A DNA stretch of 64,000 nt, from the NCBI GenBank assembly GCA_017745075.1, contig JAGIAD010000002.1, positions 1 to 64,000 on the forward strand, given 5' to 3'. The notes under the pieces are model-generated. The model saw only the letters and a list, made by a program, of their open reading frames with translations, was not told where the DNA came from and made no database searches. This stretch comes from Sphingobacteriaceae bacterium. GTDB lineage: Bacteria > Bacteroidota > Bacteroidia > Sphingobacteriales > Sphingobacteriaceae. The translations under genes were made by a program, and so were the position numbers. This document shows positions 9,985 to 46,942 of the stretch, piece after piece. Numbering within the stretch: the stretch's first letter is position 1; every line of letters begins with the position of its first letter.

Positions 9985-10057
<73 letters not shown>

Positions 10058-10132
10058 CTTTTATTTTCCCTTCCCATTCTATTTTCCTTAAAATATTTTG
10101 ACAGCTTGACCTAATCAGCTTACTTTGCAGGT

Positions 10133-46462: not shown

Positions 46463-46494
46463 TTTGCAAGGTATTGGATGTTCTTTTACATTTG
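46463..46494 (+). promoter_or_regulatory. Bacteroidetes-type promoter upstream of the tRNA-like pair
   Basis: TTTG (46463-46466), 20-nt spacer, TACATTTG (46487-46494): fits the TTTG-N19-21-TAnnTTTG consensus. Confidence 0.6.
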
Positions 46495-46545: not shown

Positions 46546-46659
46546 TGTAGGGTGGTGAAACAGGCAGACACACCTCCTTGTCTCGGTGGCGGAGAATAAT
46601 GGGAATATACCGGTAACGGTACTAACCACTCCTTGAAGGTTCGATTCCTTCCCCTACAG
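46546..46659 (+). tRNA. Class II tRNA-like gene 1; nominal anticodon GTC, 45-nt variable region
   Basis: TGTAGGG/CCCTACA acceptor, GTG/CAC D-stem, CCTCC-TTGTCTC-GGTGG anticodon arm, GAAGG-TTCGATT-CCTTC T arm. Confidence 0.75.
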
Positions 46660-46663
46660 CGGC

Positions 46664-46733
46664 TTTAGTCCTAAGTCAAGAGTCAATTGTCTTTAATAGA
46701 CTAACGACTGCAGGCTATGGACTAATGACTAAA
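46664..46733. repeat. Palindromic heptamer array (10 x 7 nt) filling the spacer between the tRNA-like genes
   Basis: TTTAGTC CTAAGTC AAGAGTC AATTGTC TTTAATA GACTAAC GACTGCA GGCTATG GACTAAT GACTAAA. Confidence 0.7.
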
Positions 46734-46734
46734 T

Positions 46735-46879
46735 TGTTGGGTGGTGAAATTGGCAGACACGCCTCCTTGTCTCGGTGGTGGGGAATAATGGGACAAACGC
46801 AGTTTATTGGGTTGACCACAAATTAATTTTTTGAACTGTAGCTAACTACCCCTTGAAGGTTCGACTCCTTCCCCAACAG
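46735..46879 (+). tRNA. Class II tRNA-like gene 2; nominal anticodon GTC, 76-nt variable region
   Basis: TGTTGGG/CCCAACA acceptor, same D-stem and identical anticodon arm, GAAGG-TTCGACT-CCTTC T arm. Confidence 0.75.
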
Positions 46880-46909: not shown

Positions 46910-46942
46910 GAGCAATCCTGGATAGGTTGCTCTTTTTATTTT
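46910..46942 (+). terminator. Rho-independent terminator after tRNA-like gene 2
   Basis: GAGCAA TCCTGGATAGG TTGCTC TTTTTATTTTT. Confidence 0.8.

Follow-up and report, generated by a model that had tools for sequence, protein, structure and literature searches.

A conserved family of class-II tRNA-like RNAs in Bacteroidota, probable non-decoding carriers for GatCAB-dependent asparagine synthesis

Structure of the locus

The window, the whole 64,000-nucleotide stretch of Sphingobacteriaceae DNA analysed, contains a tandem pair of genes for tRNA-like RNAs and, divergent from them, a gene for an AsnC-type transcriptional regulator (Table 1). The acceptor stems are 7 bp long, TGTAGGG/CCCTACA in copy 1 and TGTTGGG/CCCAACA in copy 2, and both copies possess G73, a 3-bp D stem and a 5-bp T stem with a TTCGA loop. 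The anticodon arm, CCTCC-TTGTCTC-GGTGG, is the same in the two; it keeps U33, has U at position 37 and carries a U-U mismatch. The variable arm measures 42 nt in copy 1 and 73 nt in copy 2. CCA is absent from the genes, C74 being encoded. A first-pass annotation had described this architecture, and every element it named, from the 7-bp acceptor with its following G and the 3-bp D stem to the U-U mismatch, UUGUCUC loop and long variable arms, is present in the sequence, as are the promoter and terminator that it assigned to the pair.

Table 1. Positions of the features at the locus, numbered from the first nucleotide of the window.
Feature	Position	Strand	Details
AsnC-type transcriptional regulator, 158 aa	45913-46389	-	Divergent from the RNA pair
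Bacteroidota-type promoter, TTG-N20-TACATTTG	46464-46494	+	Upstream of copy 1; matches the promoter pattern of the family
tRNA-like RNA copy 1, short variable arm	46546-46659	+	Acceptor 46546-46552, 3′ strand CCCTACA; G73 at 46659
Copy 1 anticodon loop, UUGUCUC	46578-46584	+	G34 U35 C36 at 46580-46582; C38 at 46584
Copy 1 variable arm, 42 nt	46591-46632	+	GGAG/CTCC stem, inner TGG/CCA stem, apical hairpin
tRNA-like RNA copy 2, long variable arm with GGGTTGACCAC motif	46735-46879	+	G73 at 46879
Copy 2 anticodon loop, UUGUCUC	46767-46773	+	G34 U35 C36 at 46769-46771; C38 at 46773
Intrinsic terminator	46910 to 46932-46942	+	3′ of copy 2

Neither copy is called by ARAGORN, nor does either reach a gathering score in Rfam, RF00005 included, where the best tRNA-type match, to tRNA-Sec, scores 15.4 bits and the cut-off is 47. 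The covariance model R1 described below scores copy 1 at 123.8 bits (E 2.8e-29), that copy having itself contributed to the model, and copy 2 at 107.2 bits. There are no close copies beyond these two in the window genome. An ordinary tRNA-Thr (TGT) at positions 9985-10058 is the sole ARAGORN tRNA in the window. A search of the open literature, confined to open-licence papers, revealed no published description of the RNA, which agrees with the initial impression that no described family matches. The family is previously uncatalogued, without a match in Rfam.

A conserved RNA family

A 27-base core pattern matches at least 119 stretches in at least 80 records, from dozens of Sphingobacteriales species, which is far above chance. 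The genera include Pedobacter, Arcticibacter, Solitalea, Pelobium, Hufsiella and Desertivirga and, among the matches listed, a genome has between one and five or more copies, often in tandem. Besides an alignment of 35 sequences, a covariance model, R1, was prepared and searched against 401 genomes of the order, selected genomes and 248 genomes of the class (Bacteroidia). True members have E values below about 1e-13 and are mostly 105-175 nt long, while cross-matches to ordinary tRNA-Leu span 80-86 nt with E values of about 1e-7 to 1e-13. A search of this kind, with a custom covariance model, had been suggested at the outset and it recovered members well beyond the locus. All sampled genomes from the genus of the window have the RNA, and it occurs in many other families of the class; it is missing from other groups, for example genus g2. 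No plasmid copies were found.

Phages carry the RNA also. One copy (L294:4005-4147), in the 636-kb phage LR756504.1, has tRNA genes and a gene resembling that for ThrRS as neighbours, and about 20 IMG/VR contigs (L295-L314) contain it, often within tRNA arrays, some of which also include a normal tRNA-Asp(GTC). The acceptor stems of the phage copies differ, with U1-A72, G2-C71, GUC, C38 and G73 kept.

In an alignment of 59 distinct members from across the families, which was fitted to R1 and therefore leans towards the modelled structure, 98.2% of stem cells are paired and 15 of the 24 pairs display compensatory, two-sided changes. These span the acceptor, D, anticodon, variable and T stems. 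None of 500 shuffles matches the real pairing and covariation, and structures slid along the alignment drop to 55-64% paired. An independent MAFFT alignment of closer relatives gives the same picture, with compensatory changes in the acceptor, variable and T stems. The random decay of the cloverleaf that would have marked pseudogenes is not seen. It is virtually certain that both genes belong to a real, conserved RNA family.

The covariation supports a 7/5 cloverleaf with a TTCRA T-loop and G18G19. The conserved variable arm, at least some 35 nt long, has an internal loop and a GTTGACCAC motif; the internal loop, GAWAAA/CUAA-like, is common to all forms. A long-arm form carries a GG(U/A)UGACCAC-type motif at the apex of the variable arm (copy 2 and L204, L206, L209, L213, L215, L216, L220-L223, L225 and L235). 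Hairpin-like insertions of 10-30 nt are observed in the D-loop of L218:4001-4132, L219, L223, L227 and several phage copies.

In other families the anticodon stem pairs throughout and covaries (CCCUC/GGGGG, CCCGC/GCGGG, CCGCC/GGCGG and CCAGC/GCUGG). The U-U mismatch, which the first-pass annotation rightly placed in both copies, is for this reason a trait of one lineage and not of the RNA at large. Three further ideas about this arm were discarded. Copy 1 contains CACCTCCTT, which we take to equal the 3′ end of 16S rRNA, but anti-Shine-Dalgarno mimicry is not tenable given that the CCCGC, CCGCC and CCAGC stems found elsewhere still pair with that sequence lost. An alternative anticodon stem (CNCC/GGUG) closing a 10-nt loop fails, since C and T are found at position 26 as well and it is the standard stem that covaries. 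Pairing of GUC in the anticodon loop with GAC in the variable arm is inconsistent among members.

Invariant bases

The pairs U1-A72 and G2-C71 and the base G73 are each found in 59 of 59 distinct members. Acceptor pairs 3-7 covary, with pairs 4, 5 and 7 varying freely, unlike the two outermost pairs. In the anticodon loop U35, C36 and C38 are each present in 58 members and G34 in 56. Position 33 is T in 49 and G in nine, the G33 occurring in several lineages, and 52 members have a pyrimidine at position 37 (T 48 and C 4, compared with G 5 and A 1).

Aspartate identity is specified by G73, G34, U35, C36 and C38 with a minor contribution from G2-C71 (PMC9976931), and bacterial GatCAB recognises tRNA-Asn through its U1-A72 pair (PMC4206432). 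The conserved set of bases combines the two, hence the hypothesis of charging by aspartyl-tRNA synthetase (AspRS) followed by amidation of the product by GatCAB. The RNA has each of the AspRS determinants listed and, in all 59 members and the phage copies, the GatCAB pair. It lacks the class I body and the G1-C72 pair of an AspRS substrate, having a large variable arm and U1-A72 throughout; the replacement of G1-C72, a pair that helps E. coli AspRS, is a point against such charging. On balance we consider it likely that the RNA is a substrate of AspRS and GatCAB.

The first reading of the sequence had proposed a Leu/Ser-type body, which would mistranslate Asp codons if it decoded them. The body is indeed Leu-like, but the A73 of tRNA-Leu is replaced by G73 in 59 of 59 members, which contradicts an identity as leucine tRNA, and the conserved set is that of aspartate. 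G73 is as in tRNA-Ser, the two-nucleotide linker as in tRNA-Leu. The 7/5 branch is not one of those seen in tRNA-Sec and allo-tRNA (8/5, 8/4, 9/3). The U33 and purine 37 of an elongator tRNA are not maintained across the family, although the window copies do have U33. Since the conserved set unites aspartate identity with the GatCAB pair, the GUC anticodon is best read as a signal for charging, not decoding. G33 in some lineages and a mostly pyrimidine position 37 are evidence against decoding and, with the very large variable arm, make the non-decoding role that the annotation had suggested likely.

The AsnC-type neighbour and transcription

The divergent regulator was originally described as Lrp-type. 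It specifically resembles AsnC. The NCBIfam AsnC model is the best match, with 178.7 bits compared to 70.5 for the next family, while not reaching the curated AsnC cut-off of 227, and the protein shares 47% identity with E. coli AsnC over 149 residues; E. coli Lrp gives no significant match. An AsnC homologue lies divergently upstream of the RNA at 113 of 124 loci. The E. coli asnC gene lies divergently from asnA. AsnC activates asnA, an effect that asparagine damps (PMC8707732). No AsnC homologue was found beside asnA or asnB in genomes that lack the RNA. Downstream of the RNA loci no gene is widely conserved; none that is conserved offers a hydrolase to free asparagine, and a conserved transferase gene is likewise absent from the vicinity of the RNA. 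A TTG-N17-23-TANNTTTG promoter precedes the RNA at 55 of 128 loci, compared with 0.7 expected from shuffles.

Co-occurrence with GatCAB and asparagine synthetases

The hypothesis of aspartylation by AspRS and amidation by GatCAB was set down before the genome tests, in which the presence of GatCAB was scored by GatB alone. In a first sample GatB occurs in seven of seven genomes with the RNA and none of five without. Among 248 Bacteroidia genomes GatB exceeds the cut-off in all 43 that have the RNA, and the 62 genomes without such a GatB all lack the RNA (Fisher p 1e-6, shared ancestry ignored); GatB is likewise present in all 30 RNA-containing genomes of a 49-genome panel. In a panel of 80 genomes, AsnRS is above cut-off in 79 and GlnRS in 44. 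The 44 genomes with GlnRS divide into 30 with both RNA and GatB, 11 with neither, three with GatB only and none with the RNA only (Fisher p 5e-8, uncorrected for phylogeny). The remaining genomes of this panel that have GatB but not the RNA are all without GlnRS and therefore need GatCAB for tRNA-Gln. Similarly, in the 15 RNA-containing genomes that lack GlnRS, GatCAB has a second job.

The co-occurrence is correlational and phylogenetically structured. The p values leave ancestry out of account; contrasts within the genera g4, g63 and g38 are independent support for the link between RNA and GatB. Three genomes have GatB, GlnRS and AsnRS but no intact RNA. In one of them, G339 (Sphingobacteriaceae), which carries GatB, the 5′ half of the RNA is intact and the 3′ half is replaced by a terminator-like hairpin (L229:4001-4109; same sequence in L065). 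Tandem arrays sometimes end contigs, for example L057, so assembly gaps are possible for the other two, G157 and G341. A 170-nt match that suggested a divergent RNA in G157 proved to be two tRNA-Leu halves.

Does the distribution of asparagine synthetases fit? An AsnB sharing 63-68% identity with E. coli AsnB over its length is encoded in 11 of 14 genomes that lack both RNA and GatB. Judged by hit signature and ORF size, this E. coli-type AsnB is found in none of 30 genomes with the RNA. Such genomes carry longer AsnB-like paralogues, except for G041, G069, G075 and G082, in which neither AsnA nor any AsnB above GlmS-level matches was detected. AsnA occurs in G001, G008, G110 and G546, which lack the RNA, and in G280 and G585, which have it. 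The sole strong AsnB match in the window genome is a paralogue in an exopolysaccharide cluster, its neighbours resembling genes for polysaccharide chain length, glycosyltransferase and export functions. In a 1.7-Mb genome of the same family, G116, AsnRS and GlnRS are present and no RNA, GatB, AsnA or AsnB was found; this organism is possibly an asparagine auxotroph.

There is one AspRS per genome. That of the window genome has the motif RDLG, like the E. coli and Thermus enzymes, where the non-discriminating Pseudomonas enzyme has RDHG. This is only suggestive of a discriminating AspRS, and some Gram-positive non-discriminating AspRS also have Leu at the site. No tRNA-Asn genes, sought for U1-A72, were found within the RNA loci examined. 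Bacteroidetes tRNA-Asn has been reported to possess U1-A72 too (PMC4206432), so GatCAB may act on that tRNA as well, should AspRS be non-discriminating.

Proposed role and alternatives

We consider that the RNA is probably a dedicated, non-decoding carrier for GatCAB-dependent asparagine synthesis, and infer charging, amidation, asparagine release and regulation as follows. The single AspRS of the cell would aspartylate the RNA by way of G34, U35, C36, C38 and G73. GatCAB would recognise U1-A72 and, using glutamine, amidate Asp-RNA to Asn-RNA. These two steps are inferred from the conserved identity bases and the co-occurrence. In a last step asparagine, freed or passed on, would feed AsnRS and metabolism. 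The RNA would be transcribed from its own promoter, divergent from an AsnC-type regulator expected to tune it to the level of asparagine. Asparagine may not be freed fast enough by spontaneous deacylation to be supplied in bulk and, as such hydrolysis looks insufficient, a hydrolase or a hand-over is predicted. Copy number, one to five or more, and the conserved promoter fit a bulk carrier. Should the last step end in something other than free asparagine, a role as sensor or donor may apply.

A sensor would be charged by AspRS and GatCAB only to read out the supply of aspartate, glutamine or asparagine, acting through the variable arm or AsnC, with bulk asparagine made elsewhere, for example on tRNA-Asn with a non-discriminating AspRS. 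The elaborate, conserved variable arm with its internal loop and GTTGACCAC motif, the AsnC linkage and the U1-A72 of Bacteroidetes tRNA-Asn (PMC4206432) are in keeping with this. We nevertheless judge it unlikely in view of the carriage of the RNA in phage tRNA arrays, the many tandem copies, an AspRS with RDLG as in discriminating enzymes and the lack of an E. coli-type AsnB in genomes that have the RNA. A donor role, in which a transferase uses Asp- or Asn-RNA to modify lipid, cell wall or peptide, would suit a non-decoding anticodon loop, and the staphylococcal tRNA-Gly species that serve peptidoglycan are a precedent. It is a slimmer prospect, for no transferase gene is conserved beside the RNA and the loss of the housekeeping AsnB together with the AsnC link points to asparagine supply.

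Could the RNA decode after all, reading Asp codons as Ser or Leu, or acting as a spare tRNA-Asp? Elements of the L-shape are conserved, most members have U33 and phages carry the gene inside tRNA arrays. Against this stand the failure of tRNA finders to detect it, a pyrimidine at position 37 in most members and G33 in several lineages, a G73 at odds with Leu, the occurrence of a genuine tRNA-Asp(GTC) in some of those phage arrays and the implausibility of mistranslating Asp codons across an order; decoding is very improbable. Tandem copies and phage carriage would also fit an RNA that anticodon nucleases or tRNA-cleaving toxins attack as a decoy or a spare substrate, a notion we credit slightly less still, which leaves the invariant U1-A72 and G2-C71, the link to GatB, the AsnB swap and AsnC unexplained. 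Decaying tRNA pseudogenes or a mobile repeat might be tandem and escape tRNA finders, but covariation in the acceptor, D, anticodon, variable and T stems already refutes that explanation, the conserved promoter and the presence across families and phages also speak against it, and we give it practically no weight.

The proposal of an asparagine carrier can be extended. The RNA might, outside decoding, be an obligatory cofactor of asparagine biosynthesis in much of Bacteroidota, with a discriminating AspRS, GatCAB, discharge to free asparagine, AsnC control and phage carriage that sustains asparagine during infection. On this wider scheme we are evenly divided between belief and doubt. A survey in 2014 counted Bacteroidetes with those bacteria that lack an asparagine synthetase while having AsnRS, GlnRS and GatCAB, and raised the possibility of a tRNA-Asn route (PMC4206432). 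An RNA carrier is a different and concrete answer to that puzzle of the missing synthetase, and one that simple charging and auxotrophy assays can check. If correct, it would account for an uncatalogued gene family that phage tRNA arrays share with all sampled genomes of some genera, and predictions of asparagine auxotrophy for these bacteria would need correcting.

Comparison with known systems

The RNA family is uncatalogued; the enzymology proposed for it is already known. In Deinococcus, Thermus and Bdellovibrio, AspRS and GatCAB make asparagine on tRNA-Asn with recognition of U1-A72, and that route too is found where AsnA and AsnB are lacking despite AsnRS and GlnRS. There the carrier is the decoding tRNA-Asn (GUU) and AspRS has to be non-discriminating, whereas here it would be a separate class-II RNA with an Asp-type loop unable to read Asn codons. 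To our knowledge the tRNA in every known tRNA-dependent route to an amino acid also takes part in decoding, and a separate non-decoding carrier would, if true, be the first such.

The RNA shares with tRNA-Asp (GUC) the NUGUCNC-type loop, C38, G73 and G2-C71, but tRNA-Asp belongs to class I and has G1-C72 and a purine at position 37. The nearest cross-matches, tRNA-Leu, have in common with it the 3-bp D stem, the D-loop and the two-nucleotide linker from variable arm to T stem; they differ in A73, anticodon and the giant variable arm of the RNA. Allo-tRNA, selC* tRNA and tRNA-Sec have a long variable arm and are likewise missed by finders, but with acceptor-T branches of 8/4, 9/3 or 8/5 in place of 7/5. 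Staphylococcal non-proteinogenic tRNA-Gly, which keeps a normal cloverleaf and serves peptidoglycan, resembles the role proposed in being retained for metabolism, not protein synthesis. Finally, the E. coli asnC-asnA pair sets an AsnC-type regulator divergent from an asparagine-making gene, and here the gene in that neighbouring position is the RNA.
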